From Gemmatimonadota bacterium (lineage in GTDB: Bacteria > Gemmatimonadota > Gemmatimonadetes > Gemmatimonadales > Gemmatimonadaceae), in contig JAPLKS010000013.1 in the NCBI GenBank assembly GCA_026387915.1, forward strand, positions 124,001 through 188,000: a stretch of 64,000 nucleotides of DNA, in the 5' to 3' direction. A program made the translations under genes and the position numbers. Below are positions 6,619-61,929 of the stretch, piece after piece. The notes beneath the pieces are model-generated. The model saw only the letters and a program-made list of their open reading frames with translations. It was not told the origin of the DNA and searched no databases. How positions within the stretch are numbered: position 1 is the first letter of the stretch; each line of letters opens with the position of its first letter.

Positions 6619-6939
6619 CTACTGGAACCGCGCGACCCATGCGGCGAGCGCCACACCGGCCCGCTCCAGCGCTTCGACGTCGCCGCGCAGAAACTCGATT
6701 CCCTTAAGGGCCCCCTTCTCAATATCCTCGGCGATTGCCGCGTATTCCACGGCACCGATGGACCGCGCGCCCCCTTTGATGCGATGCGCCAGCATATTCA
6801 GGGCCTTGGTGTCGCCCGCCTGATGCGCGACAGCAAGGTTCGCGCGGTCTGCCGCATCGCTCCGCACGAAGTCCAGAAGGATTTCCTTCGTGATGGTCCG
6901 ATTGTCGTCGGTCAGGTCGAGCAGATAGTTCGGGTCCAT
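6619..6939 (-). CDS. Stand-alone Hpt (histidine phosphotransfer) protein
   Basis: A 106-residue, helix-rich protein consisting of one Hpt domain. The phosphoacceptor His is in AHRIKGGARSIGA, the HxxKGxxxxxG pattern of Hpt domains. It would shuttle phosphate between a hybrid kinase's receiver and a response regulator in the cytoplasm. It lies 11 nt downstream of the REC-EAL-like gene (6951-8087) on the same strand, so that protein's receiver is the most likely partner. No kinase is adjacent; the hybrid kinases at 48-61 kb are candidates only by inference. The gene ends 8 nt from the convergent MATE gene, leaving almost no room for a terminator. Confidence 0.88.
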   Translation of the reverse strand: MDPNYLLDLTDDNRTITKEILLDFVRSDAADRANLAVAHQAGDTKALNMLAHRIKGGARSIGAVEYAAIAEDIEKGALKGIEFLRGDVEALERAGVALAAWVARFQ

Positions 6940-6950
6940 GCCGACGAGTC

Positions 6951-8087
6951 TCAGCCCGACACGCGCAAGTGCGTCTCGTACGTTTCCGCCGCGCCAGACG
7001 GCTCGCCGACCGCGGCCCCCTGCACCAGATGAACCCGCGCTTCGTGCATCGTGTCGAGCAGCCGCGCCTCATCCACGTTGGTCACACCGACCACCGCGCG
7101 AATCCGGCTCGCGCATTCGTGGACGCGATGCAGGAGCACTGGATCTGATACCCAGCTCGCCGGGCAGGTGATGGTGCTACTCGCCGTGAGGAGGTTCATG
7201 GCGGCGAGGTCTTCCGGCGTCCGGAGATGGACGGTAACGGCGAACTCGTGCATCAGCGCGCGCGCCAACGCAAAGGCCGCCGTGCCCGCGTCTTCGGTAA
7301 ATGCAGCACCCTCGAGCGCAATCGCAAAGGCATGACCGGAAATGCCGTTGATTCGCGCCTGCGCGTGAATCCAGTCGAGCAAATTGTCGTCGCGGAGGGC
7401 CCCGAGGCCAAGTGGCACGATGACCGTCCCGCGCCATCCCATCTGACGCCAGAGCGCGGCACCGAGCATCGCATCGCGCACGATCTGTTTGGCCGCTTCC
7501 GGCGCGGCGGCGAGACGATCCACCGAGGCCAGCGCGGTGATGCCCATGAGGGTTCCGTACTCGCGCGATTCCCAGCGCGGCACGGCCTCAAGCGCCACCG
7601 TACGCAGCGACGTGACATCGAGGATCGGCACATACCACGCCTTGAATTGCTCCATCGCAATACCGCGCTCGAGCCCCGCGAGATCGATGTCGCCGCCGTT
7701 TCCCGACGCGCTCTGCGGATTATTGTGCGCGTGCAACATGGAGGCGAGCGCGTCCTTCCGGATGGGTTTCGCCACGGCTCCGAGCACGCGGAGCCCCGAC
7801 ACCACCGCCAGCGACTCGACGGCGCGCAACACGCTGAGTTCGAGTCCGGACAAAATGATCAGTGAATCCGTGAGTTTTTCTTTGGCTAACTGACGAATAA
7901 ATGTCATGCCGTCCATGCCCGGCATATTCAAATCACTGAGGACGACATCCGGGCGCTGCGCTCGCGCCGAGACCAGCGCTTCCGCGCCATCGCGGCATTC
8001 GGCGATATCGGTTTGGCCGATGTCGTGCAGCAGGCGCACGGTCATCGAGCGCGTGAAATCGTGATCGTCAACGACCAGAATGTGCAT
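6951..8087 (-). CDS. Response regulator with degenerate EAL domain (RocR/VieA-type architecture)
   Basis: A 378-residue protein with an N-terminal REC domain (about 1-125) having DD, SDLNMPGMDG phosphoacceptor and VAKP lysine motifs, followed by an EAL-like domain (about 140-370). The receiver has the long helix ending GLRVLGAVAKP that characterises RocR/VieA-type regulators. The EAL part is badly eroded: EAL reads EAV, ExTE reads ALEG, the DDFGTG loop is absent and the metal and general-base residues cannot be found. It is therefore unlikely to hydrolyse c-di-GMP; it may bind a ligand or a protein when phosphorylated. An AT-rich stretch at 8134-8151 may hold its promoter. It pairs with the downstream Hpt gene. 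Confidence 0.87.
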   Translation of the reverse strand: MHILVVDDHDFTRSMTVRLLHDIGQTDIAECRDGAEALVSARAQRPDVVLSDLNMPGMDGMTFIRQLAKEKLTDSLIILSGLELSVLRAVESLAVVSGLRVLGAVAKPIRKDALASMLHAHNNPQSASGNGGDIDLAGLERGIAMEQFKAWYVPILDVTSLRTVALEAVPRWESREYGTLMGITALASVDRLAAAPEAAKQIVRDAMLGAALWRQMGWRGTVIVPLGLGALRDDNLLDWIHAQARINGISGHAFAIALEGAAFTEDAGTAAFALARALMHEFAVTVHLRTPEDLAAMNLLTASSTITCPASWVSDPVLLHRVHECASRIRAVVGVTNVDEARLLDTMHEARVHLVQGAAVGEPSGAAETYETHLRVSG

Positions 8088-12070: not shown

Positions 12071-12122
12071 TCCACTAATCTAGAGTTCTTCCAGTCTTTC
12101 GACAATCGAACCAATCCCTGCT

Positions 12123-12902: not shown

Positions 12903-12914
12903 GGCCTTCAATAG

Positions 12915-12946: not shown

Positions 12947-12950
12947 ACCG

Positions 12951-17250: not shown

Positions 17251-17269
17251 CGGTCGTTGCTGGAAAACG

Positions 17270-17307
17270 AAACGGCGGCGCGGGGAAAATTCCCCGCGCC
17301 GCCGTTT
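17270..17307. terminator. Bidirectional intrinsic terminator
   Basis: A perfect 18-bp stem (17270-17287 with 17290-17307) with a 2-nt loop. The arms begin with AAA and end with TTTT on either strand, so it can stop transcription of pntB on the plus strand and of the LPP20 lipoprotein gene on the minus strand. Confidence 0.9.
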
Positions 17308-17329
17308 TCAATTCTGCACCGCGCCGTGA

Positions 17330-17911: not shown

Positions 17912-17948
17912 CGTCCCTCCACGGTTTCTCTACTGTAGTATCGGTCGC

Positions 17949-41569: not shown

Positions 41570-41594
41570 TTTTCTAGCCACTCGAACTTCTCCT

Positions 41595-42965: not shown

Positions 42966-43080
42966 GCTATCGCGCGGCGAGCGCTGGAAGGTGGCGCTCG
43001 CGTGGTTGGTGGTGCTGGTCCCGGCGGTCTGGGGAGTAGCGCAGGTCATCGTCAAGTCAGCGGCGTTGTTCGGGCGCTGA
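42958..43080 (+). CDS. 40-residue single-TM partner of the OFA transporter
   Basis: A very short gene encoding a protein with one transmembrane helix: MSELSRGERWKVA, then a hydrophobic run LAWLVVLVPAVWGVAQVI and a short basic/aromatic tail KSAALFGR. The start ATG lies inside the end of the OFA gene (8-nt overlap), and the stop is at 43080. The position, size and SRGERW-type N-terminus match the small companion proteins annotated beside OFA-family carriers (MFS small subunit). It may stabilise the carrier or tune its activity. Confidence 0.78.
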   Translation: MSELSRGERWKVALAWLVVLVPAVWGVAQVIVKSAALFGR

Positions 43081-43102
43081 TCACTTTTGAGGAGAGGCAC
43101 AC

Positions 43103-43777: not shown

Positions 43778-43789
43778 AGATCGCAATAC

Positions 43790-43828
43790 AAAACGTCGGC
43801 GCGGAAGAATATTCCGCGCCGACGTTTT
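43790..43828. terminator. Bidirectional intrinsic terminator
   Basis: A perfect 17-bp stem (43790-43806 with 43812-43828) with a 5-nt loop, followed by TTT on the plus strand and preceded by AAAA. It separates the converging Gly/Met-rich gene (stop 43777) and VOC gene (stop 43841). Confidence 0.92.
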
Positions 43829-43840
43829 TTTGCCCCTCAG

Positions 43841-44692
43841 TTACTCGGCGCGGACGCGCACAGCCGTTCCCCAGGGATCGCGCACCAAGAAACTCGCGCC
43901 CGCCTCATCGAGTGCGCGGCCCGCCGCGTTGAGCCGATCGCGCACAGCGTCGAACCCATCCGATGGAACGCAGAGCGTCCACTCGAGCAGGTGCGCTTCG
44001 TCGTCGTGGGCCGACTCAGCACCGCGGGCCCACGTGTTGACGCCGAGGTGATGGTGATAGCCGCCCGCGGCGAGAAAACTCGCGCCAGGGAGCGCGGCCA
44101 TTTCGGAAAACCCGATCTCTGCACCGTAGAACTGACGCGCCGCGGCAAGATCGCCCACATGCAGATGCATATGACCGATCACCGTCCCCGCAGGCATGCC
44201 GCTCCACGGGATGTTGCCTGCGGCGGGGAGCAGGTCGGCGATGTTCACGGGGAGGGTGGCCATCTCTACGCCATTGGCGGTGCGCGTCCATTGGTCGCGC
44301 GGGCGGTCGGCGTAGACTTCAATGCCGAGTCCGTCGGGGTCCTGCAGGTAGAACGCTTCGCTCACGAGGTGATCGCCGGCGCCGACTTCCACATGCAGCG
44401 CGGAGAGGTGCGCGAAAAATCGTGCGAGCGAGGGGCGGTCGGGGAGTAGAATGGCGAAGTGGAATAGTCCGAGTCGGCCTCGCACCGGCACGTGCGGTGC
44501 ACCCGGACGTTCGTGCAGCACCACGAGGGCGGAGTCACTGCCCTGCGCGGTGAGCGTCACGACCTGGCCGTCGCGAGCGTGCTCCCGAAAGCCGAGGATG
44601 CGGGTGTAGAAATCGAGCGAGGCCGCAAGGTTGCCGACTTGGAGGTCGACGCGGCCGATGTGGCTGTGATCCGGAAGTATGTGTTGCTGCAC
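43841..44692 (-). CDS. Two-domain VOC-family dioxygenase-like protein (CatE type)
   Basis: A 283-residue protein made of two vicinal-oxygen-chelate modules. The first opens HIGRVDLQVGNLAASLDFYTRILGF and has LFHFAILLPDR and GIEVYADRP; the second opens GHMHLHVGDLAAARQFYGAEIGF and has HHHLGVNTW. His and Glu residues sit at the usual metal-ligand positions (GRVDL is a His-less variant at one, HMHLH at the other). The relatives are catechol 2,3-dioxygenase and CatE of Bacillus, or glyoxalase-like proteins; the substrate is probably an aromatic but is unproven. It stands alone on the minus strand. Confidence 0.85.
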   Translation of the reverse strand: MQQHILPDHSHIGRVDLQVGNLAASLDFYTRILGFREHARDGQVVTLTAQGSDSALVVLHERPGAPHVPVRGRLGLFHFAILLPDRPSLARFFAHLSALHVEVGAGDHLVSEAFYLQDPDGLGIEVYADRPRDQWTRTANGVEMATLPVNIADLLPAAGNIPWSGMPAGTVIGHMHLHVGDLAAARQFYGAEIGFSEMAALPGASFLAAGGYHHHLGVNTWARGAESAHDDEAHLLEWTLCVPSDGFDAVRDRLNAAGRALDEAGASFLVRDPWGTAVRVRAE

Positions 44693-44743
44693 TGCGCGAA
44701 CTCCGCCGAGGGGTTGAGGCGGAATTTAGCGACCGAGTGCCAT

Positions 44744-44896
44744 TTATGGCCTGGTGGTGGAGCGGGCCGGGATTAAGAGGTGAACGGTGTCGGTGGGGAG
44801 GACGAACATACGGCCGGTCTGGGTGTCTACCCACACTGAGAGCCCATAGAGTAGCGCGCCCATCACTACACCTGCCGCCGGCGCCCCGCCCAACAT
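44744..44896 (-). CDS. Possible small membrane protein
   Basis: A 50-codon frame with an ATG at 44896 and a TAA at 44744-44746. It encodes MLGGAPAAGVVMGALLYGLS, then a short polar turn and a hydrophobic FVLPTDTVHLLIP segment. The composition looks coding, and the frame continues open upstream without a good start. It lies 74 nt downstream of the pseudopilin gene on the same strand. No family is recognised; it could equally be spurious. Confidence 0.3.
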   Translation of the reverse strand: MLGGAPAAGVVMGALLYGLSVWVDTQTGRMFVLPTDTVHLLIPARSTTRP

Positions 44897-47342: not shown

Positions 47343-48563
47343 GTGACGGAAGATTATTCGGACCTGAGTGTGCTGGTTGTGGACGACCAGTTGCACGTGC
47401 GCCAATGGGTAAGTGCCGTCCTCGGAAGTTTGGGCGTCGAGCGCATTGCCGAAGCGAGTAATGGGCGGTCCGCGCTTCACGCGGTGACCGAGCCCGGCGC
47501 GGCGTTCGACCTCATTATCTGCGATTTGCGCATGCCCGACACCGATGGCGTGGAGACCATTCGCACGATGGCGCGGATGGGTGTTCGCTCTGCGGTCGCG
47601 ATTCTCAGTGTGGAGCAGGAACGCGTCATTGAGAGCGCTGGGCTGCTGGCGACACTGGGCGGGCTCGACCTTGTGGGGGCCATGGAAAAACCCCTGACGC
47701 TGGAAAAATTGGAACCGGTGCTCCAACGCGTGCGTGCGCGCCTCGCCCCTGCTCCGCAGGCAGCGCCGGAGCTGGCGACGCCAGCGTTGGCCGACCTCGA
47801 CTTGAGCGCCGCACTCACCAACGGCGAGCTCTCGCTCCTCTACAAACCGACGGTGCGAACGAGCGATGGCAGTTGCGTAAGCGCCGAAGCCCACCTCCGA
47901 TGGAATCACCCGTCACACGGCCCGCTCACTGAGGGCGTGGTGATGCAATGTGCAGCACAGGCGCCGACGTTCCTCCTCAACCAGCTGACAACCTTCACGG
48001 TGCGCGAGGCAATTGCCGCCGCTGAACGGTGGCAGGAGAGCGGTAGCGACGTGGGAGTGGCAATCAATGTGTCGCCACTCGAGTTCACGACGCTCGATCT
48101 GCCGGAGTTGATCGAGTCGCTCGCGCTCGAACGTCAGGTACTGGCATCGAAGATCACGATCGAGATGCCAGAGCAAGTGTTGCAAAGCGACGCCGCATCT
48201 GTGATTGATTGCTCGACGCGCTTGCGGCTGAAAGGATTCCGGCTCGCGCTGGACCACTGCACGGGGACGGTACCCGAGATGGCCAAACTCGCCACACTCC
48301 CCTTCAGCGAAGTGCGGCTCGATCCCACACTCGTGCACGGATGCGCAGCGTCGGCGCGCCAGCGGATGGCGATTGAGGCGACCCTGGCGGTGGCACGGAG
48401 CATGCAACTCTCGACGGTGGCGCTCGGCGTTGCCCAGCGCGCCGACTGGGAGCTCCTCGGCGTCCTGCGGTGCGAGGGAGCGCAGGGGCCATTCATCGCT
48501 CCCGCGATGGAGGAATCCGGACTGCTACACTGGATGGCACAGCGTAGCTCGCTACCGCTCTGA
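47343..48563 (+). CDS. Response regulator with degenerate EAL domain
   Basis: A 406-residue REC-EAL-like protein. The receiver (about 1-125) has VVDDQ, CDLRMPDTDG with the phosphoacceptor, and the RocR-type run to MEKPLT. In the EAL part (about 150-400) EAL reads EAH, the N of INVSP is kept, DDFGTG reads LDHCTG, the Lys of KID is Arg (VRLDP), the EGVE Glu is lost (ALGVAQ) and only QG survives. It should be catalytically dead. GTG at 47343 is chosen because VTEDYSDLSVLVVDD aligns exactly with the paralogue start MTDDFSALRVLIVDD. An ATG at 47274 would add 23 residues. Its end overlaps the convergent kinase gene by 12 nt. Confidence 0.87.
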   Translation: MTEDYSDLSVLVVDDQLHVRQWVSAVLGSLGVERIAEASNGRSALHAVTEPGAAFDLIICDLRMPDTDGVETIRTMARMGVRSAVAILSVEQERVIESAGLLATLGGLDLVGAMEKPLTLEKLEPVLQRVRARLAPAPQAAPELATPALADLDLSAALTNGELSLLYKPTVRTSDGSCVSAEAHLRWNHPSHGPLTEGVVMQCAAQAPTFLLNQLTTFTVREAIAAAERWQESGSDVGVAINVSPLEFTTLDLPELIESLALERQVLASKITIEMPEQVLQSDAASVIDCSTRLRLKGFRLALDHCTGTVPEMAKLATLPFSEVRLDPTLVHGCAASARQRMAIEATLAVARSMQLSTVALGVAQRADWELLGVLRCEGAQGPFIAPAMEESGLLHWMAQRSSLPL

Positions 48564-51500
48564 CTCCGCCGACGCGCTCCCAACGACGCTGCGCACTTTC
48601 AGCGCCAGTGCCGCCAGTGTGAATGGCTTGGCCAGAGAGGGAGCCTGCGCATCGAGCACGGGCGTCCCCGACCCCACTTGGGACGAATAACCCGACATGA
48701 AAAGGATCTTCATGTCCGGGCGGCTCTCCGAGAGCATTTCTGCGAGTTGCCGGCCATTCATCCCTGGCATAACCACATCGGTGAGCAAGAGGTGGATCGG
48801 CGCCTGGTACTCCACGGAACGACGGAGTGCCTCGGCGGGGCTGCCCGCACCGATGACAGTGTAGCCAAGTTCGCGCAGGGCCAACTTGGTGAGGTTGAGA
48901 ACCTGCTGTTCGTCCTCAACGAGTAGGATGGTTTCCGTGCCCCCTTCGACCTCTTCCTGTTGCTGTGGAAGGCTTCTCGGCATCACGCCGGTGTGCCGCG
49001 GGATATAGATATCGAAGCTCGTGCCCTCGTTAGGCGCACTGGTCACGAGGATAAATCCGTGACTCTGCTTCACCGCGCCGTACACGGTCGCGAGGCCAAG
49101 TCCGGTGCCCTCGCCCACGGATTTCGTGGTAAAGAACGGCTCGAAGATTCGCGCCCGCACGTCGCTCGACATACCGCAGCCGTTGTCGCGAACGGTCAAT
49201 CGCACGTAGTCACCCGGCTGGGCGTCGATGTGTAACGCGCAGAACTCGGTGTCGAGTCGACAGTTGGAGGTCGCAATCATCACCGTACCAAAGCCAGACG
49301 CGGGGGCGAAGTCGCTGTGACCCATGATGGCGTCTCGTGCGTTCACGCACAGGTTGGCCATGATCTGATCCACCTGCCCCGGATCCATATAGGTTGGCCA
49401 GACGGATTCGCTCGGTTGCCAGTCTAGCGCCACATCCTCGCTGATGAGTCGCTTGAGCAAGTTGATAGAGTTCGCCACTGCCACATTAATATCCAGCACG
49501 ACGGGCATCACCGCTTGTTTGCGCGCGAACGCGAGCAACTGCCGCGTGAGTTCAGCCGATCGTAGCGCGGCGGAATGAATTTCGTTGAGGCCCGCTTTCA
49601 ACTTGGGCGTTCCCTCCACTTGCCGAAGGGCGAGCTCTGTACGGCCAAGAATGACGCTCAACATATTGTTAAAGTCGTGCGCCACGCCGCCGGCCAACCG
49701 CCCGACCGATTCCATTTTCTGCGATTGCCGGAACTGTTCCTCGAGAGATTTTCGCTCGGTGATGTCCTGTTTTACCGCGATAAAATGGGTAATCGCGCCG
49801 GCGTCGTCACGAAGCGGCGTGATCGTAACGTCTTCGGTAAAGAGTGATCCATCCTTGCGTTGATTGACCAACTCGCCAGTCCACGCACGACCTTCACGAA
49901 TCGCCTCCCACATCCGCTCGTACGCGGACCGATTCTGTGGCTCCGTATTTGCGATGTCGCCGGTCCGGCGCCCGAGCGCTTCTTCCGCGGTGTATCCGGT
50001 GGTGGTGGTGAACGCTGCGTTGCACCACTCAATCGCGCCCTCGCGGTCGGTGATCAGAATGGTGCTGGACGCCGCTTCAAGGGCGGCGCCTTGCAAACGG
50101 AGTACCCGTTCGGCGTCCCAACGCGCGGTCACGTCCACCGAGGCTCCGACGATTCCAATGACCGTGCCGCCCGCGTCACGTTCCGGTTCAATCACCATGT
50201 CGGCGACATGCACGATTCCGTCCCGGCGAATCACGAACTCCTCGCGCTCCGCGTTCCCACTCTGCAACACGCGCTGTTTGGTCGTGGTGATCCGCGCGGC
50301 CACATCCGCCGGGAACAGCTCGGCGTCCGTGGCGCCGACAATTGGATCGGATGGCAGGTGCAGCCCCTGTGGATGGTAGATCCACACGTACCGCAACTGT
50401 GCGTCCTGATTGAAGACGGTGGTGCTCGCCGTTTGCAGTCCGAGCCGGAGACGCTTTTCAGAGATGCTCAGCGCCACTTCCGACGCCAAACGCGCTTTTT
50501 CGTTGCTGAAGCGTTCGAGGGCGATGCCGATATTGGCGGCCATATCGACAAGCAGTCGCCGCACTTCTTCATCGAAGACATTCGGCTCCGACGAGTAGAG
50601 CGTCAGAGCGCCCACCGCCTCACCGTTCCTGAACAGGGGAAGCGCGGCGCTCGACTTCCATCCACTTTTCTCCGCGCGCGCCAGCCAGTGCTCCGTCAGG
50701 GGGTCGTGCAGAAACTCTTGCACCCAGAACGGAACACGGTCACGAATAGCGCGCGCGGTTGGCCCCCTGCCCGATGGCAGGTGAGGATCGACCGAGATTT
50801 CGACATTCTGCAAGTAGCCGTTGTCGTCCCCGACGTTCGCGACTGGAACTACGTTCCCCGTGTGCTCGTTGATCACGCCGATCCACGCCATTTGCAACTT
50901 TCCGTAACTCACCGCCGCCTGGCAGATGCCCTCAAACAACTCCCTTTCACTGCGGCTCGACGCCATCGTCTCGTTGGCAAAGGCAATTGCGGCGTAGAAC
51001 TCGCTGAGGCGACGGATGCGTGCCTCTTGCTGCTTGCGCGCGGTGATATCGACGGAGATTCCGAGGAGGCCCGTCACCGCTCCGCTATCACCGTTCACGC
51101 GGATGGGGGTCTTGACCTGCAAATACGTGACGGACTCGCCATTCAGAGCGGACTCGAACTCATTGGTCGCCGGCTCACCACGAACGACTTGCTCGTCGAC
51201 CGCCTGAATGCGCGCGACGGCGTCGGCCGGGAAATAGTCGCGATCATCAGACCCAATCAACTGGTCGGCGGATACGCCGAGTGTGGCGAGCGTTGGCACA
51301 TTCCCGTAGGTGTACCGACCGTGCGTGTCTTTCATGAACACGACGGTCGGCACGTGATCGAGCGCGTCCCGGAAGCGTTGCGCGTCCGCTAGGGCGCCCC
51401 GCAATGCGAGGTCCGCCTGTTTTTGATCTTCGGCGTCTCGGACGGTTCCCGAAAAGCGAAGAGGCATTCCTTCGGCGTCGCGCTCCAGTTCACCGCGGAC

Positions 51501-53510
51501 GTGGCACCAACGGTAGGAGCCGTTTTTCTTCCTTATACGCTGATCAATCGCGTACGGCACATCGGTCGCGGCGTGCGCATCGAGCGCGGCTTGCACACGG
51601 GCACGATCGTCGGGGTGGATCAACTCCATCAGCCGGAGCCCGCCTGCCGCCATCTCGCCGACCTCGTAGCCCAGCAGTTGCTCGCACCGAGGCGAATAGT
51701 AGCGCGACGCGTCGCGGTAGTTCCACTCCCAAATCCCGTCACTGGTGGCGCGCGCCGCACGACCGAACCGGGCCTCACTGGCCGCCCGAGCCTCTGCTTC
51801 CGCAGCTATTTGCCGAGAGAGTTTCAACTCGCGGGCGAGGGCCTGATGGCTCCCTCTCGTCAACTGCGTGGCGACGGCATACGACAGACTCACGACGACG
51901 AGCAGCCCAAGGAGCAGATTGAGCAAGAACGTGCGCCGCACGGGCGTTAACACTTCATCGCGGTCCATCTTTGCCAGCAACACCCATGGCGTCCGTGGAA
52001 CGTGGATGCCTGCGAAGAGCACCGCATGCTGGCGGTAATCCACCGCCCGCCCGGTGAGTTCACCCGGGGAGCGCGCCATCTGCACGAGCGCCAGCTGCGT
52101 CGTCGGATCGTTCGTCGCCTTCTTCGTCATCGCGAGTCCGCGGTCGAATCGCACATCGCTCAAAAACTCTACACTGTCTGGACCGGTGCGCCCAAGCACG
52201 AACTCACCGGTCTCACTCTCAAATGGCCAGTCATGTGTGACCGCAAATAGACTTTGCGCCGCGTTCGACTGAAAGCGGACGACGCCTTGCTGTTCCGCCG
52301 CCCCGCCGGCCGCTCGCCCAACCGCAGCGTAAAAGGCGAGGTGCGTGTGCCCACCAGCCGCGTCGCGATGCAAGTCTTCAAACGCCACCGTTTGCTGGGA
52401 TGCCGAGAACCGGCGTATCGCGGAATCGTCGCCAGCGGTCAAGCCTTCCTCACTGGCGGGAACGGTCAGCACCAGTCGACCCGCGCGATCAAAGAGGGTG
52501 ATGTCTGTGAAGCCTTTGGCATTTCGCATGGCTTCGAACGTCGCCGTCACCTGCATTCGCGTGCGCGCATCGCGAGGGTTCGCTAACAGCGCGCTGACAG
52601 CATTTGCCAACACCGGCGCGCGCGTCACGATCTCGGCGTCCCCGCGGCGCTCGCTCAACCACGTCGTCACCTGCCGTGACCTGGCGTGTACAATGACACG
52701 CAGGTTTTCGCGTACCTCTTGCTGCGCAGCGGCCGCCGCTTGCTCGTACGCGACACGAAACCCGACGACAACAGTTCCGCCGAACACCAGCACCACGAGC
52801 CCGAACGTCGATGCGAACGACAAATGGGCCGACTTGCCCTCGCGATCTACCAGCACGCTCCGCGGCCACTCCGTGCGCTGGAGACGCATGGCGAAGCTCG
52901 TGCCAAGCAACGCAATCGCCAGTGCGCTCGCCGGGGGAAGGATGGTCGTATCGTTCCACTGTAAAGGCGCGCCCAACAGGGCCGACACGAGGGCCGTCCC
53001 GCTGAGGAGGAGGAGGAGCATCGCGAGGAGCCCCCCCAGGCCCATGAGCAGGCGCCGACCATACCGCTGGTAGAGCGCACGGTCGAGCCCCAGCAACGCG
53101 ATCACTCCGAACGGCACTAATACTTGCCACTCGACATAGAACAGCGGCAACAGGGCGTCTGGATCCGTTGCGCGCGTGATCAGCGACAGTCGCGGCGCAC
53201 CAATCTGCCACAGGGTCCACGCCGCACTTTGCAACAGCAACGCGAACGTGAGGGCAGCGCCGGCCACATCATACCGCGCCGTCGTAACGCCTTCGCGCTG
53301 AAGGAGCGCGGATCGGGCCGCAAGCCCGAACGCAAGAAAGAGCAGCGCCACCCCCGGCATCAGCCGTGTGCCATCGGCGACGATCTCCGTCCACCGCGAT
53401 TCGCCGATGCCCCACGCGAGCGCCGTCAAGATCCCCAGCAGGGCGAGCGCTCCACCGAACTGGGAGACACGAGTAAGAGCGATCGTTTCGCTGTCGCGTT
53501 CAACGGACAT
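48552..53510 (-). CDS. Large membrane-bound multi-sensor hybrid histidine kinase
   Basis: A 1652-residue kinase. Residues about 15-210 hold six hydrophobic helices. A further helix (about 235-255) precedes a periplasmic Cache-like region (255-525) and another helix (528-548). Then come PAS (about 580-695), PAS (710-825), GAF (845-1000), PAS (1015-1135) and PAS (1140-1255). HisKA follows with His1278 in [11 protein letters not shown], then an HATPase with [10 protein letters not shown] and DNGCGM-type boxes, and a C-terminal REC domain with [12 protein letters not shown] and LAKPF. All kinase residues look intact. It senses extracellular and redox or ligand cues. It lies 14 nt downstream of a stand-alone REC gene. 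The ligand is unknown. Confidence 0.92.
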
Positions 53511-53524
53511 CGGCGCTCGCGCTC

Positions 53525-53923
53525 CTACCGCGGTGACGAGGGAGAGTCCGCCGGCGGCGTGGCCAGCACCTGCGCTACGGTATCGAGCAACAGCTGCGAC
53601 GAGAATGGCTTTTGCAAGGTGGCCGCTGCACCGAGTGAGGCCGCCATGTCGAGATAGTCGGCGGCGTCGCCCCGCCCACCGCCGGACATCGCAATGATCT
53701 TCAACGCCGGCCACCGTTGCCGGATTTCCATGATGGTCTCAATGCCCTCTTTGTCTGGCATCACAAGATCCGTGACCACGAGATCAAACAACTCACGCTC
53801 GACCGCCGCAATGGCGGATGCGCCGTCGTCGGCCTGCGTGACGAGGTGCGCATCGAGTTCCAGCACCTCGGCCAAGAGTTCGCGAACCGCGAATTCGTCG
53901 TCTACCAGCAGAATCTTCGCCAT
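53525..53923 (-). CDS. Single-domain response regulator (REC only)
   Basis: A 132-residue CheY-like receiver: ILLVDDEFAVRELLAEVLEL, phosphoacceptor Asp in LVVTDLVMPDKEG, the Ser/Thr position in IIAMSGGGRG and the lysine in TLQKPFS. No output domain follows. It is the gene directly upstream of the large hybrid kinase (14 nt), so it likely receives or drains phosphate from it. MAKILL at 53923 is chosen as start over an upstream extension, since the extension lacks receiver character. Confidence 0.92.
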   Translation of the reverse strand: MAKILLVDDEFAVRELLAEVLELDAHLVTQADDGASAIAAVERELFDLVVTDLVMPDKEGIETIMEIRQRWPALKIIAMSGGGRGDAADYLDMAASLGAAATLQKPFSSQLLLDTVAQVLATPPADSPSSPR

Positions 53924-53984
53924 GCTGTCTCCACGCAGTCGTGGCACCCGTTGCCACGCAGTGATCTTCACCGCTGCACCCCTA

Positions 53985-55334
53985 CTACGGTCTAGCCGTC
54001 AGCCGCGCCTCCAGCGCACGGTGTAGTACCTCGTCGACGGTCGAGAGCAACGCATTGACCGTGAATGGTTTGTCCAGAAATGCCACGACCGCCCCGGGCG
54101 CTCCGGCCCAGGATACGGGACCGTGCACGTAGCCGGACATGTAGATCACGCGCACAGCCGGTGTGATGGCCGTGATCTGGTCGATCATCGTCATCCCGGT
54201 CATGCCCGGCATGATCACGTCTGTCACGATCGCTGCAGGACGTCGCGCCTCACCCACCGCAGCAAAGTGGCGGATCGCCTCCTTGGGATCGTCCGTCTCC
54301 CACACGTCATACCCTTCGCCCGCGAGCGCCAGCCGGACCGATTCGCGTACCTCACGGTCGTCATCCACGACAAAGAGACGTTCCTTGCTTGGCGTCGCCT
54401 CGCCTGCTTTCATCGGCGTCACGATCGCTGTCGACTCCGGCGTTGGCACGGCGAACTCCGCTGCGGTGGTGACACGATCGCGTCCCTCACTCTTGGAGGT
54501 GTACAACGCCCGATCAGCGGCGGCGAGGAGTACCTCATATGACCCCATCCCCGGCTGATGCACCGCAATACCCGCGCTCACCGTCTGCCGGCCCCACGCA
54601 AATTGCCGTTCGCGCATTTGGTGCAACACGCGCTCGGCAAACACCGTCGCCGATGCCGCCTCGCTCGCCCGCAACACCGACACAAACTCTTCTCCGCCAA
54701 AACGCGCCGACAGGTCCTGCCCGCGCGTATTGTCACGCAGCACCTCCCCAAACTGGCGCAACGCGTCATCACCTGCGGCGTGACCGTGGGTATCGTTGAC
54801 GCGTTTGAAGTGGTCCAGATCGAACACCACCACCGTGATCGGATGCCCGCGTTCCGCGGCGGCGAACGCCGTCTCAAGTGCCACATCCAACTGCCGGCGG
54901 TTGGGCAAGCCCGTCAGTCGGTCAACAAGCGCCATATCCTCCGCCGACCGCCGCTCACGGTTGAGCGCCTCCGCGAGCACGGCAATGCCAATCGATACCA
55001 CGAGATACACCAGCACAATCGCCAGCAAGAGCGACCAGTTGGGTTCGGCAATGTCGAATGCCACCACGCTCACCTGCGTTGCCGTGATCACCGCCATGCC
55101 GCCGGCGAGTGCCACGGCAACACCACGGAGCCCGCGATAGTACGCGAGCAGAAACGCGGGGATCAGTGCGGGGAGCCACACGAGCGTTCCGAACCCCGCA
55201 TTGGTGAAATCCGGAAAGCTCAACACGGCCACCACGGGCACGGCAAACGCCATGAGGGAAATCACGAGCGCGCGCGGCGGCACGACCCGGTCTTCCGGAC
55301 TGCGGGCGGGCGCGAGTGGAATTCGTGGGGGCAT
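53985..55334 (-). CDS. Membrane diguanylate cyclase with C-terminal receiver domain
   Basis: A 449-residue protein. About five to six transmembrane helices (20-125) lead through a short coil to a GGDEF domain (about 145-300) with DRLTGLPNRR, FDLDHFKRVNDTHGH and active-site RFGGEEF. An RGQD I-site lies five residues before GGEEF, so product inhibition by c-di-GMP is likely. A C-terminal REC domain (about 330-445) has VVDDD, VTDVIMPGMTG and LDKPFT. This is the reverse of the usual REC-GGDEF order. Its ATG overlaps the stop of the upstream REC-EAL gene by 1 nt (TGATG), pairing c-di-GMP synthesis with its breakdown. Confidence 0.92.
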   Translation of the reverse strand: MPPRIPLAPARSPEDRVVPPRALVISLMAFAVPVVAVLSFPDFTNAGFGTLVWLPALIPAFLLAYYRGLRGVAVALAGGMAVITATQVSVVAFDIAEPNWSLLLAIVLVYLVVSIGIAVLAEALNRERRSAEDMALVDRLTGLPNRRQLDVALETAFAAAERGHPITVVVFDLDHFKRVNDTHGHAAGDDALRQFGEVLRDNTRGQDLSARFGGEEFVSVLRASEAASATVFAERVLHQMRERQFAWGRQTVSAGIAVHQPGMGSYEVLLAAADRALYTSKSEGRDRVTTAAEFAVPTPESTAIVTPMKAGEATPSKERLFVVDDDREVRESVRLALAGEGYDVWETDDPKEAIRHFAAVGEARRPAAIVTDVIMPGMTGMTMIDQITAITPAVRVIYMSGYVHGPVSWAGAPGAVVAFLDKPFTVNALLSTVDEVLHRALEARLTARP

Positions 55335-56539
55335 CACGCGACCCGACCCTGCCACTGCGGCACCCACTGTGTGAGTCCTAACTCTGACATGGGCCGCGCC
55401 ACATAGTAGCCCTGCACCATATCGCACCCGAGTTCAGCCAACAGATTCCAGTCCTCTCGTGTTTCCACACCCTCTGCCACTGATGTCATCCCGAGATCGC
55501 GCGCAAGCGCGAGGCTCGCCTCCACCACTGATCGCTGCGTAAACGACGTAGAACAACCGTGCACAAAGCCGCGATCAATTTTGATCTCGTTGAATGGCAA
55601 CTGTCGTAAGTGCGAGAGACCGGAATTCCCAGTGCCGAAATCATCCACGGAGAGATTGAACCGCTTGAGTCGTAGCCGGGTAGATACTTCAGACATTCGG
55701 TTCGCATCGCGTGCGACCTGCGTCTCCGTGAGCTCGAGCGTGATGCGATCATTCGGCACGTTGGCGTCGCGCGCCATCGCCTCAATGCGCTCGGGAAGGT
55801 CCAGCTTGTCGAAGGCGCTCGCCGAGAGATTCACCGCGACCGCGAGGTCTCGTCCATCCGCGCGCCATCGCCCCGCACAGCTAATGGCCGCCTGGAGCGC
55901 ATAGTCATTGAGCTGGTCGGCGAACTCCGTTGAGCTCTCGAGGAACGGAACAAAGGCGCCTGGCAGAATGAGTCCGAGCGTGGGATGCTGCCATCGCACG
56001 AGGGCTTCGGCCGAGCTGAACCGGCCGGACTTCATGTGCACCTTCGGCTGATAGTGCAGGTGCATCTCGCCGCGACGAAACGCCTCGGGGAGATCGCCCG
56101 TCGGAGCCACCACGGCGGCGCGCTGTGGCGTGGCAGCGGCCGTCGTCATTTGCGAGAGGAGCGACGCCATGCGGCGAAGGTCTACCGGCTTTCGCACCGC
56201 GCCGAGCACATGTAGCCCTTGGGCCGCCGCCAACATGCCCGCCGTCTCGAGAATGCGCGGTTCCTCAACGCTCATCACCACCACCCACGCCTCAATTCCC
56301 ACGGCGGCAAGGGCCCGCAGCGTCTCAACGCCGTCAGACTCCGGCATCTGCAAATCGCAGAGGATCAGATCAAACTGTGTGCCCGGCACCGTTACGGCCG
56401 CCAACGCCTCTCGTCCGCTGCCAACCGTCACCACGCGCCCCACGCCGAGCGTCTCGAGTACGAGCCGCACGTATTCGCGCACTTCTTCCTGGTCGTCAAT
56501 GACCAGTGCCGCGTATTGGGCCAACGGAATGGGGGGCAT
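55334..56539 (-). CDS. REC-EAL c-di-GMP phosphodiesterase, RocR-like
   Basis: A 401-residue REC-EAL protein. The receiver (about 1-130) has VIDDQ, CDLQMPESDG, and the RocR-type helix to LGAVRKP. The EAL domain (about 150-395) keeps every catalytic element I looked for: AEALVRW, VNLSAS, ELTET, DDFGTGNSG, IKIDRGFV, AEGVE and VQGYYVARPM. It should hydrolyse c-di-GMP to pGpG under control of receiver phosphorylation. It is followed directly, with a 1-nt overlap, by the diguanylate cyclase gene. Among the four REC-EAL proteins of the window it is the only one that looks active. Confidence 0.94.
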   Translation of the reverse strand: MPPIPLAQYAALVIDDQEEVREYVRLVLETLGVGRVVTVGSGREALAAVTVPGTQFDLILCDLQMPESDGVETLRALAAVGIEAWVVVMSVEEPRILETAGMLAAAQGLHVLGAVRKPVDLRRMASLLSQMTTAAATPQRAAVVAPTGDLPEAFRRGEMHLHYQPKVHMKSGRFSSAEALVRWQHPTLGLILPGAFVPFLESSTEFADQLNDYALQAAISCAGRWRADGRDLAVAVNLSASAFDKLDLPERIEAMARDANVPNDRITLELTETQVARDANRMSEVSTRLRLKRFNLSVDDFGTGNSGLSHLRQLPFNEIKIDRGFVHGCSTSFTQRSVVEASLALARDLGMTSVAEGVETREDWNLLAELGCDMVQGYYVARPMSELGLTQWVPQWQGRVA

Positions 56540-56623
56540 TTCGTAACAGCAGTTCGGGGGGGGTGGCGTCTCGTGATGTGGGTGGCGCTGGTGTTCGGTG
56601 GTGCGTGTGACCGGTGGTGCGCG

Positions 56624-57826
56624 TTATTGGTTGTGCATCATCCATTGCGTGACCCAAATCCCGAGTCCCGCCTCCGGCATGGCATGCGCAATAAAGTTGC
56701 CTTGTCCCACTTCGCATCCGAGTTCGTCGAGCAGATTCCAGTCTGGGCGACTGGCCACACCCGCGCATACCGTCGCGAGCTTGAGACTTCGCGCAAGGGC
56801 GAGGCCCGCTTCGACCATGGCGCGCTTGCTGTCGGACCTGGAACAACCGTCCACGCACTCGCGCGACAACTTTAACTCACCAAACGGAATCTTGAGGATT
56901 TCTTCGATGCCGGAATGCACGCCGGTGAAGTCGTTGAGCGCGAGCCGGAATCCCTTGATACGCAGCCGTGCGGCCACGTCAATCAGGGTGGCGAGATCGC
57001 TTCCAATGGTCGTTTCGCCTACTTCGATCGTGATCCGCGCCGGTTGCACTTTGTGTTCGCGCGCCAACTGCTCAATGAACTCGGGGAGATCGAGTTGCCC
57101 CAGTACCTTGGGCGACAGATTCACCGACACGCCGATCTCGCGTCCATCGGCCTGCCAGCGGGCGCAAGCCGCCACGGCTTCGCGCAAAATAAATTGAGTG
57201 AGCGTGCTCAACTGCGAGCTCGACCGTTCGGCGAGCGCGAGCAAGGCGTCGGACCGAATGACGCCGTGTGTGGGATGCGTCCACCGTACGAGGGCCTCGG
57301 CGCCGACGCACACGCCACTCCGCATCACGATTCTCGGCTGATAGTGAATTTCCATCGCTTTTCGCTCGAGTGCCTCAGCGACCTCGGCTTCGGAAATCAC
57401 CGGTGCGTCCTCGGGAGGCGGTGCCGCAACTTCCGTGGTTCTCCGCAGTACCGCCTCAAGCTTGTCCGCCGTAAGCGGCTTGGAGACCTCGCCGACAATA
57501 TGGAGACCACCGAGCGTGGCCAGCAGGCCGGCACTTTCAATGACGCGCTCGTCCTCAACGCTGAGAATGGCGACCGTGCACTGCAAACCCAGCTTGCCCA
57601 TGGTGCGAATGGTCTCGATGCCGTCCATCTCCGGCATCCGCAGATCGCAGAGGATGAGGTCGAATGCCGCGCCAGGCGCCGTCACCGTCTGGAGCGCGGC
57701 GCGGCCGCTCGACGCCTCCTCGACCTGCGTCACATTGAACATGAGCAGTTGGTCGCGCACAAACTTGCGCACGTGGACTTGGTCGTCAACGATGAGTACG
57801 CGGAGTGCGGAGAAGTCGTCAGTCAT
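56624..57826 (-). CDS. REC-EAL protein with partly lost catalytic residues
   Basis: A 400-residue REC-EAL protein. The receiver is intact (IVDDQ, CDLRMPEMDG, VSKPLT). In the EAL domain AEALVRW, VNLSP, the Glu of EVGET and the QG motif remain. DDFGTG has become NDFTGV (first metal Asp lost), KID reads KLS and EGVE reads AGVA. Without those residues c-di-GMP hydrolysis is unlikely, though binding is possible. It lies 84 nt downstream of nothing on its strand but the pseudokinase gene (start 59412, stop 57859, 32 nt before), so the two are probably co-transcribed. It resembles the protein at 47343 more than the active one at 55334. Confidence 0.9.
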   Translation of the reverse strand: MTDDFSALRVLIVDDQVHVRKFVRDQLLMFNVTQVEEASSGRAALQTVTAPGAAFDLILCDLRMPEMDGIETIRTMGKLGLQCTVAILSVEDERVIESAGLLATLGGLHIVGEVSKPLTADKLEAVLRRTTEVAAPPPEDAPVISEAEVAEALERKAMEIHYQPRIVMRSGVCVGAEALVRWTHPTHGVIRSDALLALAERSSSQLSTLTQFILREAVAACARWQADGREIGVSVNLSPKVLGQLDLPEFIEQLAREHKVQPARITIEVGETTIGSDLATLIDVAARLRIKGFRLALNDFTGVHSGIEEILKIPFGELKLSRECVDGCSRSDSKRAMVEAGLALARSLKLATVCAGVASRPDWNLLDELGCEVGQGNFIAHAMPEAGLGIWVTQWMMHNQ

Positions 57827-57858
57827 GGGGGGCGAGTCTGTGGGAGAAGTTGGGGCGA

Positions 57859-59412
57859 TTATTCGATCGTTCCCGCTGACGCGGGATACAGCGTGGCGTA
57901 AATGGTGCGCACGACGTCCTGCAGCGTGTATGGCTTTGCCAGCAACGGCCAGGCCACTGAGTCAGAGCCGGCCCCTTGCTGCGTACGCGTTGTGCCACTC
58001 GTGACGACGAGCATACGCACGCCGGGGAGCATCCGTTTGCATTCGACGGCCAGCATTCGGCCATCGCCGTCGGCAAACACATCACTTGTCACCAGCACAT
58101 CCACGGTCGTTGTGGGCGAGGCGGCAATCCGAAGCGCTTCGTTGACGGTAGACGCGACCGCCACCTCAAAACCGTGCTCGGCTAGTCCGGCAGAGATCGC
58201 GTCACGCACGAGCGCGTCGGGCTCTACAAAGAGCACGGAAATCGCGCGGGCACCCGGAGTCGGCGGTATCGCTGGCATCGCGGCCACCGTCGCCGCGATC
58301 TGCCTCGGCAACCATACGGTGTACCTCGTTCCGTGCTCTGGGACACTTTCCACCTGAAGCTCTCCGTGCAACGCGCGCACGATGCTACGCACGGCGAGCA
58401 GTCCAATACCAGTCCACACGTCGGGCGAAGCGGGTGGGACTTCCGGCTCAAAGAGTGTTGCGAGCTCCGTAGCACTCATTGCGGCTCCGGAGTTGCTCAC
58501 CGAGAGCCGCACGTACTCCCCCGCCACGAGGACCCCTGCCATCACGTTCGAATCACTCACCGTGGTATTCGCGGTCTCCACCTTGAGCGTGCCACCCGTC
58601 GGCATCGCCCCGATGGCCTGCAGCACCAGCGTCATCACCACTTGTTCAATCTGGCCGGCGTCGGCCAGCACGAGGCCGAGGGATTCGTCGAGCAGAAATG
58701 ATTTATTGATATTCGGAGGTAAGGCGCGCTCGACCGCCGCACGCAGCGTACGGAGGAGCAGATTCAGATCAATCGCACTTATGGCGCCGGCGCTCCGGCG
58801 GCTGAGCGCCAGCAACTGACGCGAAAGCCCTGCCGCCGCTTCCGCCGCCGAATGGATTCGGCCCAGCCGGTCTTTCAACGTCTCGTCGCTCGCTTTCATC
58901 GCCAGCAGTTCGCAATAGCCTTGAATCACGACGAGCAGATTATTGAAATCGTGCGCAAACACATTGGCGAGCTGACTGGCGGCCGCCTGCTTCTGCGCGT
59001 GCCAGAGCTCCTCGACCAATCGGCTCTCGTCCGAAATGTCCGTGCACATCACGCACGCACCGACGCGCGTGCGATCGCTATCGTACACTGGATGGATGGT
59101 GGCACGGAGCCGGTGAGTCAGTGCGTCACCCGAAACGGCTTCCACGCGCACACCGCTGACCGCCACCCCACGTTGCAATGACTCGCGCGCCCGATCTTCC
59201 AGTGAGGGATGCGAGGTCGGGAGCAATGCCGCCAACGTGCGCCCAAGATGATCCGCGTATGGACGGCCCGTGAGCGCCGTAAACGCGGGATTCACCCAGC
59301 GGGCGCACAACTCGGTATCCACGAACGCGACCGCATACGGCGCGTCCTGCCACGCCGCCACTAGCACGGCAGGGAGCGCCTCCCCTGTGAAAACCGGAGC
59401 AGCGGTCGTCAT
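57859..59412 (-). CDS. PAS-histidine kinase-REC protein, probable pseudokinase
   Basis: A 517-residue protein: PAS domain (about 15-130), HisKA with His154 in VFAHDFNNLL, HATPase-like domain (about 215-370) and REC-like domain (about 390-515). The ATP-binding boxes are altered: the N-box Asn is Gln265 (LVLQAIGAM), the G1 Asp is Asn307 (VSNSGAAM), while the C-terminal G2-like TGIGLLAV is only partly kept. The receiver phosphoacceptor aligns with Ser443, next to Asp444. It could therefore be phosphorylated by another kinase on His154 but not autophosphorylate. Its start overlaps the upstream intact kinase by 4 nt, so the two are made together. Confidence 0.88.
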   Translation of the reverse strand: MTTAAPVFTGEALPAVLVAAWQDAPYAVAFVDTELCARWVNPAFTALTGRPYADHLGRTLAALLPTSHPSLEDRARESLQRGVAVSGVRVEAVSGDALTHRLRATIHPVYDSDRTRVGACVMCTDISDESRLVEELWHAQKQAAASQLANVFAHDFNNLLVVIQGYCELLAMKASDETLKDRLGRIHSAAEAAAGLSRQLLALSRRSAGAISAIDLNLLLRTLRAAVERALPPNINKSFLLDESLGLVLADAGQIEQVVMTLVLQAIGAMPTGGTLKVETANTTVSDSNVMAGVLVAGEYVRLSVSNSGAAMSATELATLFEPEVPPASPDVWTGIGLLAVRSIVRALHGELQVESVPEHGTRYTVWLPRQIAATVAAMPAIPPTPGARAISVLFVEPDALVRDAISAGLAEHGFEVAVASTVNEALRIAASPTTTVDVLVTSDVFADGDGRMLAVECKRMLPGVRMLVVTSGTTRTQQGAGSDSVAWPLLAKPYTLQDVVRTIYATLYPASAGTIE

Positions 59413-61535
59413 TGATCGCCTCGTATCGGAGGCGCGCCGGTAGGCGGGTTGCTGTGCATCGCTGCCGTCGCAGGCAGGGGTGCGTCGAGCGCTTCACGCA
59501 CGGTGCGCACGAGCGTGGCGACCTCGAACGGCTTCTGCATCACGCGCGTCACGCTCTCATGTACGAGGCGTTCGGCGTCGGCCAGCGAGGCATCCACACC
59601 ACTCATGGCCACGACGCGAACGTTGGGACGCAGGCGGCGAATCGCGTGGGTCATCGCAATACCGTCGAGGACCGGCATTTTGATGTCCGTCAACACCACC
59701 GCGATGTCATTTCCATCGCGTGCAAAAAGTGCCACGCCCTCGGCGCCGTCGCGCGCGGTCAGCACGCGGAAGTGAAACTGTTCCAAGGTTTCGCGCACTA
59801 GCTCGCGCACATCGTCCTCGTCCTCCACGACCAAGACAAGCTCTCCGTGCCCTTCTGGCGTCCCCACGAATGTGCGAGGTGCGGCCGGCTCTGCGGACTC
59901 TTCGACCACGGGGAGATACACGCGGAACATCGAGCCGCGCCCGACGATGCTTTCGACGCCAATGAAACCGTTGTGCGAGCGCACGATACCCAGGCTCGTC
60001 GATAGTCCGAGCCCGGTGCCTTGCCCCGCGGCCTTGGTGGTGAAGAAGGGTTCAAAGATGCGATCGAGCACACCCGGGACAATTCCAGGGCCGGTGTCGG
60101 TTACGCTGATGCAGATGAAATGCCCCGCTCGTCCACCCGCGATTCCGAGGGCGGCGGCCTGCTCGAGCGTTACCTCCTCCGCGACGATCCGTAGCAGCCC
60201 GTGCCCTTCCATCGCCTGCACGGCGTTGACGCACAGGCTCAGCATCACTTGATGGAGCTGCGCGGGGTCTGCCATCACACTCGGCAACTCTCGCGGGGCC
60301 ACGACCTCGACGCGAACGTCTTTGAGTAATGTATCGTCGAGCATTTTCGCCACATCGTTGACGACGTGCCGAACCGTCATCGCGACTTTTTCTCCCTCGA
60401 GGCCACGCGCAAAACTCAGCACCTGCTTCACCATAGCCGCGCCGCGCGCCGCGCTCTTTTCGATGGTCTTGAGGTGGCGCGAGGCCCGTTCGTCGAGCGG
60501 CAGCCGCTCCAGCAACCCGACGGCCATGACGATGGGAGCGAGCGTGTTGTTCAGGTCGTGGGCGATGCCGCCCGCCAGCGTGCCGACACTCTCGAGCCGC
60601 TGCGTCCGGTGCTGATGCGCTTCGAGACGGCGCACCGCGGCTTCGGTGCGTTGCTGTTCTTCTCGCCGCTCAAGAGCACCGAGCGACGCAGAAATCTCAG
60701 CGGCCACGTCGCCGAGGAGGATCACTTCGTCGTCGCCAAAGGCGCCCGCCTCTGCGGCGAAGACCGTGAGCACGCCGACGATCGTGCCGTTCGCCGTCAA
60801 TGGAAGCGAGGCCGAGGATCGGAGTCCGTACACGATCGCCGCCGCGCGCCACGGTGCTGGCGTAGCATCGAGTTCAAAATCTGCGAACACGACCGTGCGC
60901 CCTTCGCGCGCCGCTTGGCCGAAACCGTCAGGGTCCGCACTGAACGGCAGACCATTCGGGGTGTCGTGGCCGACACCGGCGGTCGCTACTGCACGCAGGA
61001 CCCCGGTCACAGGATCGAGCATGCCAATCCAGGCTAGTCTGAAATTTCCGTCGGTCACCGCGCAGCGGCACGCGTCCGCGAACAACGCTTCACGAGTGGC
61101 GGCGCGACGACTTACATCGGACGCACGGCGCAGGAAGTGGTAGGCGTGCGTCAAGCGAAAGTTCTCGCGCATCGTCTGCTGAAACAGCGTGACATCGCGC
61201 GCCACCACCATAAACCGACCGTCAGTGGAGACGGCGCCCGCCCGGAGGTTCATTTGGCGATACTGACCGTCCTCGCGCGTAAGCCGAAGGCTCAGACTTC
61301 CGAGCGCCACACCCGCGCGCAGGCCGGTCAGTGCGTCCTGCATCCGCGCGCAATCATCCGGATGCACGAGAGTGGCGATATCGCGACCCTGAGTAGCCGC
61401 CACGGACCATCCGAGCGTCGGCACGATTGCCGGATTCACGTCGATAATCGTTCCCGTCCGGTCGAGCAACAAGAAGATGTCGGAGGAGGTCCGCCAACAT
61501 TCTTCGAGGTCGAGGGCGCGCTCGCGATCCGTCAT
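59409..61535 (-). CDS. Soluble PAS-GAF hybrid histidine kinase
   Basis: A 708-residue cytoplasmic kinase: PAS (about 12-125), GAF (145-290), HisKA with His326 in GGIAHDLNN, HATPase with LCVNAVQAM (Asn present), DTGPGI and GTGLGLS, and a C-terminal REC with VVEDED, LTDIKMPVLDG and MQKPFE. All motifs for autophosphorylation are intact. It is the first gene of the kinase-pseudokinase-REC-EAL run on the minus strand. The ATG at 61535 (MTDRER) is preferred; an upstream ATG at 61556 would add seven residues. The GAF domain suggests a small-molecule or light-pigment cue. Confidence 0.93.
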   Translation of the reverse strand: MTDRERALDLEECWRTSSDIFLLLDRTGTIIDVNPAIVPTLGWSVAATQGRDIATLVHPDDCARMQDALTGLRAGVALGSLSLRLTREDGQYRQMNLRAGAVSTDGRFMVVARDVTLFQQTMRENFRLTHAYHFLRRASDVSRRAATREALFADACRCAVTDGNFRLAWIGMLDPVTGVLRAVATAGVGHDTPNGLPFSADPDGFGQAAREGRTVVFADFELDATPAPWRAAAIVYGLRSSASLPLTANGTIVGVLTVFAAEAGAFGDDEVILLGDVAAEISASLGALERREEQQRTEAAVRRLEAHQHRTQRLESVGTLAGGIAHDLNNTLAPIVMAVGLLERLPLDERASRHLKTIEKSAARGAAMVKQVLSFARGLEGEKVAMTVRHVVNDVAKMLDDTLLKDVRVEVVAPRELPSVMADPAQLHQVMLSLCVNAVQAMEGHGLLRIVAEEVTLEQAAALGIAGGRAGHFICISVTDTGPGIVPGVLDRIFEPFFTTKAAGQGTGLGLSTSLGIVRSHNGFIGVESIVGRGSMFRVYLPVVEESAEPAAPRTFVGTPEGHGELVLVVEDEDDVRELVRETLEQFHFRVLTARDGAEGVALFARDGNDIAVVLTDIKMPVLDGIAMTHAIRRLRPNVRVVAMSGVDASLADAERLVHESVTRVMQKPFEVATLVRTVREALDAPLPATAAMHSNPPTGAPPIRGDQ

Positions 61536-61929
61536 AGGCGGCACGCTCCGGCGCACAACGCCACACGCAGACCGGCGGCGCGTTCGGCGCCAGCCGTGAG
61601 TGCTTCAACAAGCCGCGCCGCTTCGTCCGCGTCATCAATGCCTTATGCAGATGGGAGTCGTCTCCCACAATCTGTCGTACAGGAGCGCAAAGGCGCTATC
61701 CGAATATCCCTGACTCCATTGGCCATTCTGTCGTGAAACGGACTTCCGACGGTGGCCGAAATGCGGTCGGCCATCGCCCGTTAAAGCGGAAGTCGCCCAA
61801 CCCTCAGAGGGGTTGGACGACTTCCGCTCTTTTACCGGCGGGCCTGTAACGCCGAGTAGAATCTTCCCTTTTCCCTTACATACGTTAATTCAACGGTCGT
61901 TCCGAGCGCTCAAATCCAGCTGCTTCTGG
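61536..61929. other. Gene-free stretch with a strong hairpin terminator (61785-61828)
   Basis: No gene is supported in these 394 bases. The stem pairs gcggaagtcg and ccaaccc on the left with gggttgg and cgacttccgc on the right, around a TCAGAG-type loop with one mismatch. TCTTTT follows on the plus strand, and the complementary side ends CTTTAA. It ends the minus-strand D-aminoacylase-like gene (stop 61930) at some distance. A second 7-bp hairpin (tggccga and tcggcca) lies at about 61753-61773. The promoter of the kinase operon (start 61535) must also lie here. Confidence 0.7.

Follow-up and report, generated by a model that had tools for sequence, protein, structure and literature searches.

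Catalytically degenerate receiver-EAL (REC-EAL) proteins of one clade, D1, are encoded next to an orthologous hybrid histidine kinase, and that kinase often lacks its ATP site. Two D1 members lie in the window, by which we mean the whole 64,000-nucleotide stretch analyzed here (G000:C13:124001-188000, part of a 3.58-Mb genome). The reading that we favor, with a probability of about 0.5, is that a cognate kinase and REC-EAL pair decayed stepwise and has been retained to regulate, by reading phosphorylation, the live phosphodiesterase next to it. It is a more tentative proposal that the whole pair lost both activities in step and now forms a selected dead module regulating both the adjacent phosphodiesterase and the adjacent cyclase. 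Equally tentatively, Gemmatimonadaceae may display the stages of this decay as a series, early in genomes G003 and G129 and late in G000/G017 (the window genome and its sister) and G124/G125.

That EAL domains can lose catalysis is well known, most examples being GGDEF-EAL proteins or proteins with EAL alone. The present cluster contains dead receiver-EAL proteins together with live twins; the orthologues show successive degrees of decay, and a neighboring kinase is decaying as well. Such natural intermediates let one ask in which order the halves of a signaling pair die and what selection keeps. The finding is real, under selection, and richer than a first-pass annotation had reported.

The locus and the catalytic residues of its REC-EAL proteins

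Genome-wide profile matches comprise nine EAL, eight GGDEF, one PilZ, and six Hpt, so that c-di-GMP signaling is probably in use. As the first-pass annotation had said, four open reading frames of the window carry Response_reg and EAL domains by Pfam (Table 1; genes are named by their first coordinate), with EAL scores descending from 217 bits (55334) through 179 (56624) and 137 (47343) to 38 (6951). That annotation had overlooked a fifth REC-EAL of the same type, intact and on another contig (G000:C23:48318-49649), as well as the degenerate kinase 57859 and the Hpt gene 6619. The best NCBIfam match of all five is PvrR (NF052596; 229, 293, 260, 134, and 298 bits), and each falls below its cut-off of 580 bits; by best match, the window REC-EALs are classed as PvrR/RocR-like while lying below the PvrR family cut-off. 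The genes of the minus strand run from kinase 59409 through kinase 57859, 56624, 55334, and GGDEF-REC 53985 to receiver 53525, with gaps that are short or overlapping. The locus is predicted to be a PvrR/RocR-type c-di-GMP control cluster made up of a kinase, a degenerate kinase, dead and live REC-EALs, a GGDEF-REC cyclase, and a receiver.

Table 1. Features of the window discussed in the text
Feature	Coordinates	Strand	Remarks
REC-EAL pseudo-phosphodiesterase (D1 clade), putative	56624..57826	-	D295N, D318S, E352A, E355A; receiver intact
REC-EAL pseudo-phosphodiesterase (D1 clade), putative	47343..48563	+	Q161K, D296H, K316R, E352L, E355A; receiver intact; GTG start, common to the G017 orthologue
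REC-EAL phosphodiesterase, full catalytic residue set	55334..56539	-	Pfam and alignment
REC plus highly degenerate EAL domain, separate family, at least 8 genomes	6951..8087	-	predicted EAL barrel fold
Hpt phosphotransfer protein	6619..6939	-	Pfam Hpt, 39.2 bits; starts 11 bases past the 6951 stop
Hybrid histidine kinase, degenerate ATP site, H-box HDFNN kept	57859..59412	-	ends 32 bases before the 56624 start
Hybrid histidine kinase; N-box Asn, G1, G2 intact	59409..61556	-	4-base overlap with the next gene
GGDEF-REC (diguanylate cyclase) with GGEEF and RxxD motifs, hydrophobic N-terminal part	53985..55427	-	coordinates of the open reading frame as listed; true start probably later
Single-domain receiver protein, common to G017	53525..53971	-	identified by reading the sequence
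Hybrid histidine kinase; N-box, G1, G2 intact	48552..53714	-	convergent with 47343; absent in G017; start of the open reading frame probably too far upstream

Residues were read off a MAFFT alignment and numbered after RocR by alignment to PDB 3sy8. Alone among the window REC-EALs, 55334 keeps every catalytic residue (E175, N233, E265, D295, D296, K316, E352, and Q372), as had been claimed, and so does the fifth copy on the other contig (G000:C23:48318). The reported loss of the first metal aspartate, the KID aspartate, and the EGVE glutamate from 56624 likewise matches its D295N, D318S, and E352A changes; E355 has become Ala, and E175, N233, E265, D296, K316, and Q372 are retained. For 47343, the first-pass annotation had added the loss of EAL and DDFG. 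The L of EAL (to H), D296, and the G of DDFG (to T) have indeed changed, along with the other residues given in Table 1, but four metal ligands (E175, N233, E265, and D295) as well as D318 and Q372 remain, so that the claim was overstated. Almost everything has gone from 6951, as described: it carries N233P, E265A, and E352V, its DDFG and KID regions are not alignable, and little is left besides R179 and Q372-G373. The proposed gradation across the four proteins therefore stands in its order, its degree having been exaggerated for 47343. All four receivers retain the acidic pair and Ser/Thr in addition to the phosphoacceptor Asp and Lys that had already been noted.

The eight-residue set of active phosphodiesterases is thus incomplete in 56624, 47343, and 6951. 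E352 is missing from all three, and 6951 also lacks N233, E265, D295, D296, and K316; by their residues they are assigned outside the active enzyme class. The losses are not chance, since they recur in the sister-genome orthologues and in another genus. The available text of PMC12943098 reports that E703A in TBD1265, which affects the glutamate equivalent to E352, abolished activity, and by analogy E352 loss should abolish hydrolysis. We infer that the degenerate REC-EALs are very probably inactive as enzymes. A change of E355 to Gln was set aside as a mark of inactivation: E355 is Gln in most otherwise intact copies, and the second motif Glu of TBD1265, E706, was changeable without effect in the same available text (PMC12943098). 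The 56624 model has a confident EAL fold (pLDDT 85.2; against 8arv, Z 34.5 and rmsd 1.7 over 254 aligned residues).

Two differences from the sister genome G017 were seen around the cluster. The 5-kb hybrid kinase gene 48552-53714 is missing there, a 4.95-kb presence/absence difference, and the flanks matching window positions 48553 and 53508 lie only about 36 bases apart. The cluster itself (53508-58406) has 79.7% DNA identity to G017, against 89 to 91% for flanking stretches (5301-20913 and 41144-44858), and its dS is about 0.7-0.8 versus 0.2-0.3 in flanking regions; an exchange of the cluster between lineages, or its faster evolution, may lie behind this.

Origins of the degenerate REC-EAL proteins

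We searched 179 genomes of the family, most of them MAGs, and scored the best 10 or fewer REC-EAL candidates per genome, so that member counts are given as "at least." Removing four broken or cut frames (L059, L061, L097, and L112) from 63 REC-EAL frames and adding five 6951-type rows gave a set of 64 sequences, on whose tree the mapped catalytic residues mark out two degenerate clades, D1 and the 6951 family. Among the matches listed, D1 has eight members in at least six of the 179 genomes, spread over two genera: 47343, 56624, their G017 orthologues (76% and 90% identical, respectively), and one copy each in G003, G129, G124, and G125. Its support is 100/99, and 99 after masking 62 motif columns. 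E352 is absent from all eight listed members, with Ala, Leu, or Val instead. Because 47343, 56624, and their six relatives form one clade without E352, the loss happened once and further decay followed; separate origins for the losses in 47343 and 56624 are ruled out by the tree, whether motif columns are masked or not. Alignment, tree, and purifying selection all bear out the suggestion of the first-pass annotation that catalysis was lost after duplication while receivers stayed intact. Its further suggestion of repeated conversion holds at the level of families, 6951 representing a distinct ancient one, but not for 47343 and 56624, whose supposedly separate conversions go back to one common origin.

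Decay within D1 has reached different stages. The G003 and G129 copies keep all metal ligands, 47343 lacks D296, 56624 lacks D295, and the copies in G124 and G125 lack N233, D295, and D296. Over the 64 REC-EALs, the tree requires at least six changes at E352 and eight at D296; all eight core residues are retained in 38 of the 64 (L110 was scored as not intact solely from an alignment gap at K316). Copies without E352, other than those of the 6951 family, occur in at least eight genomes, and in 8/8 of these there is also an intact REC-EAL. Two REC-EALs, in G005 (L045:6748-8136) and G001 (L046:5137-6618), have Lys in place of E352 with the other seven core residues intact, making them candidates for recent single-residue inactivation.

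The 6951 protein was used to query the 179 family genomes and 288 genomes of the order. Among the 179, it matched 13 genomes; five matches, at 28-31% identity, came via other REC-EALs and were excluded, leaving a family of at least eight members: two among the 18 genomes of the genus and six in genus g29. In the 64-sequence tree, the branch of this family measures 2.4 changes per site, and its eight-row alignment has 102 invariant columns, 44 of them past residue 140. The 6951 model consists of REC plus an EAL barrel (pLDDT 84.3) with RocR as the top Foldseek match, and its EAL part aligns with 8arv at Z 24.4 and rmsd 2.5 over 227 residues. The 6951 protein is a member of an independent, far older degenerate family distinct from D1. 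An Hpt gene stands directly behind the 6951-type gene in three of the eight family genomes (the window genome, G017, and G125). A tblastn search of the remaining 6951-type loci, those of genus g29 (L136-L140), revealed no Hpt relative, and neither did inspection of the open reading frames listed for L136 and L138. The 6951-type gene of G125 adjoins yet another degenerate REC-EAL (L100:3876-5180; D296N, D318S, E352V).

A decaying kinase beside the D1 genes

In 6/6 loci, a D1 gene lies directly behind an orthologous 57859-type hybrid histidine kinase gene and shares its cluster with a live REC-EAL; GGDEF-REC accompanies them in five, G003 being the locus whose stretches showed none. A contig end truncates the G017 kinase; the other five, which are complete, group in a single clade (SH-aLRT 100 in a quick tree with long branches). 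All five retain the H-box HDFNN. The ATP site is lost in three (window, G124, and G125), and their phospho-histidine motif stays. In 57859, the N-box Asn has become Gln, the G1 Asp Asn, the second G1 Gly Ala, and the first G2 Gly Trp; of the residues that a functional histidine kinase needs, the H-box His is thus retained, and the N-box Asn, G1 Asp, and G2 Gly are lost. HATPase scores are 84 to 85 bits for the G003 and G129 kinases and 43.9 bits for the window kinase, and Pfam recognized no ATPase domain in the G124 and G125 kinases. Within the G124/G125 pair, dN/dS is 0.21 for the DHp part and 0.47 for the much less constrained ATPase part.

The two intact kinases, in G003 and G129, adjoin the two least decayed D1 copies. 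With five complete kinases, representing no more than two independent events, this pattern suggests that the more decayed REC-EALs accompany dead kinases. Among 50 H-box kinases near these REC-EALs, six lack the N-box Asn or G1 Asp, including three of five D1-linked kinases versus 3 of 45 others (Fisher p 0.009, with rows that are not independent). A strict rule by which a dead REC-EAL means a dead kinase fails, since the dead copies of G003 and G129 have intact kinases. Degenerate kinases also adjoin intact REC-EALs (L058 and L096), and G003 has a second degenerate kinase (L042:11330) beside an intact REC-EAL copy. The kinases L058:7564-8772 (G006) and L096:8010-9167 (G120), with Leu or Gln in the N-box and no G1, form a second degenerate histidine kinase clade.

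Selection, possible roles, and known relatives

Selection was estimated by NG86 against the G017 orthologues, at dS values (0.7-1.2) that are high for this simple method. Whole-gene dN/dS is 0.090 for 55334, 0.088 for 56624, 0.189 for 47343, and 0.159 for 6951, and bootstrap upper limits for the three degenerate genes are at most 0.26. Purifying selection at 0.09-0.19 means that 56624, 47343, and 6951 are not pseudogenes, and the pseudogene reading, which the first-pass annotation had named as a possible refutation, is ruled out: dN/dS is well under 1 and the frames are open. By part, dN/dS is 0.105 (REC) and 0.078 (EAL) in 56624, 0.053 and 0.267 (95% 0.190-0.366) in 47343, and 0.042 for the EAL domain of live 55334.

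What probably remains in the degenerate proteins is a folded, phosphorylatable receiver-EAL able to touch kinases and sister EAL domains, and regulation of the live enzyme is their most likely role. We infer a mechanism for this that is possible, though short of even odds. The EAL domain would have lost E352 in a single event that preceded the split of the two genera or a transfer of the genes between them; in two lineages the metal ligand D295 would then have been lost too, while the adjoining kinase lost its ATP site and kept HDFNN. The dead pair would have been retained because it still reads phosphorylation, the REC-EAL receiving its phosphoryl group through a relay or from a different kinase. 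By binding the kinases and the live REC-EAL, it could tune the phosphodiesterase 55334, either by forming mixed EAL dimers or by competing for phosphoryl groups. The two window proteins may differ in role: the whole-length constraint on 56624 would suit a scaffold or mixed dimer, and the constraint on 47343, which falls mainly on the receiver, would suit a decoy or phosphate sink. The earlier term "phosphorylation-controlled scaffold" would fit the regulator reading.

If the proteins were phosphate sinks only, the receivers would act as decoys that take phosphoryl groups away from the kinases, the EAL domain being a passive remnant. The contrast between receiver and EAL in 47343 and the intact receiver residues of all degenerate REC-EALs agree with this, but the EAL domain of 56624 is as constrained as its receiver, and the 6951 family preserves its 44 invariant columns past residue 140, in the EAL part, across eight genomes; we regard a pure sink as rather unlikely.

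The first-pass annotation had also offered c-di-GMP receptors, which like FimX and LapD would bind without cutting and signal under receiver control. In its favor, 56624 and its G017 orthologue retain Q161, ExLxR, N233, E265, and Q372, and the predicted fold of 56624 matches the FimX and LapD EAL domains at Z 26 to 28.5. However, E352, lost in 8/8 D1 members, is equivalent to LapD E617 by both sequence profile offset and structure offset, and E617A severely reduces c-di-GMP binding according to the available text of PMC3032545; by analogy, E352 loss should weaken binding. ExLxR, a named receptor motif (PMC10333796, available text), is broken in six of eight D1 members, persisting only in 56624 and its G017 orthologue, and in 8/8 of the 6951 family. 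With the E617 equivalent gone from all three window proteins and ExLxR from 47343 and 6951, we do not file them as FimX/LapD-type, and a receptor role is disfavored and unlikely; 56624, which keeps ExLxR, might still bind some c-di-GMP. Chance survival of genes decaying towards loss is highly improbable: few genomes listed have degenerate copies (D1 at least 6 and the 6951 family at least 8, of 179) and broken REC-EALs do exist (a TGA in G010, two fragments in G012), but open frames, the low dN/dS and its upper limits, and gene order kept across genera speak against it.

Among known systems, RocR resembles 55334 in full-length REC-EAL sequence and has a full catalytic residue set, unlike the D1 clade without E352. 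FimX and LapD share with D1 an EAL fold without catalysis; they bind c-di-GMP, whereas D1 lacks the LapD E617 equivalent and mostly ExLxR. YdiV/RflP, BluF, and CsrD, likewise degenerate EAL proteins, work through contact with other proteins and are not known to have a receiver domain or a linked kinase. Retention of degenerate EAL domains without enzyme activity is reported for RflP, BluF, and CsrD (PMC5635695, available text). We found no literature joining Gemmatimonas, c-di-GMP, and EAL, and titles and abstract openings of related literature mention no dead kinase paired with a dead REC-EAL. PvrR, the REC-EAL phosphodiesterase of Pseudomonas aeruginosa PA14, is an active enzyme, whereas the D1 proteins are predicted to be inactive. 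In the PvrSR/RcsCB operon, as here, a REC-EAL is encoded with hybrid kinases, which there split kinase and phosphatase roles; the available text of that account (PMC3842833) describes neither a dead twin nor a degenerate kinase. A precedent for 57859 as a possible reader of a phosphorylated receiver is Caulobacter DivL, a histidine kinase that does not usefully bind ATP and is kept as a reader of DivK~P (PMC4211667, available text). The two differ in that Tyr replaces His in DivL, whereas 57859 retains its His and has lost the N-box Asn and G1 Asp.
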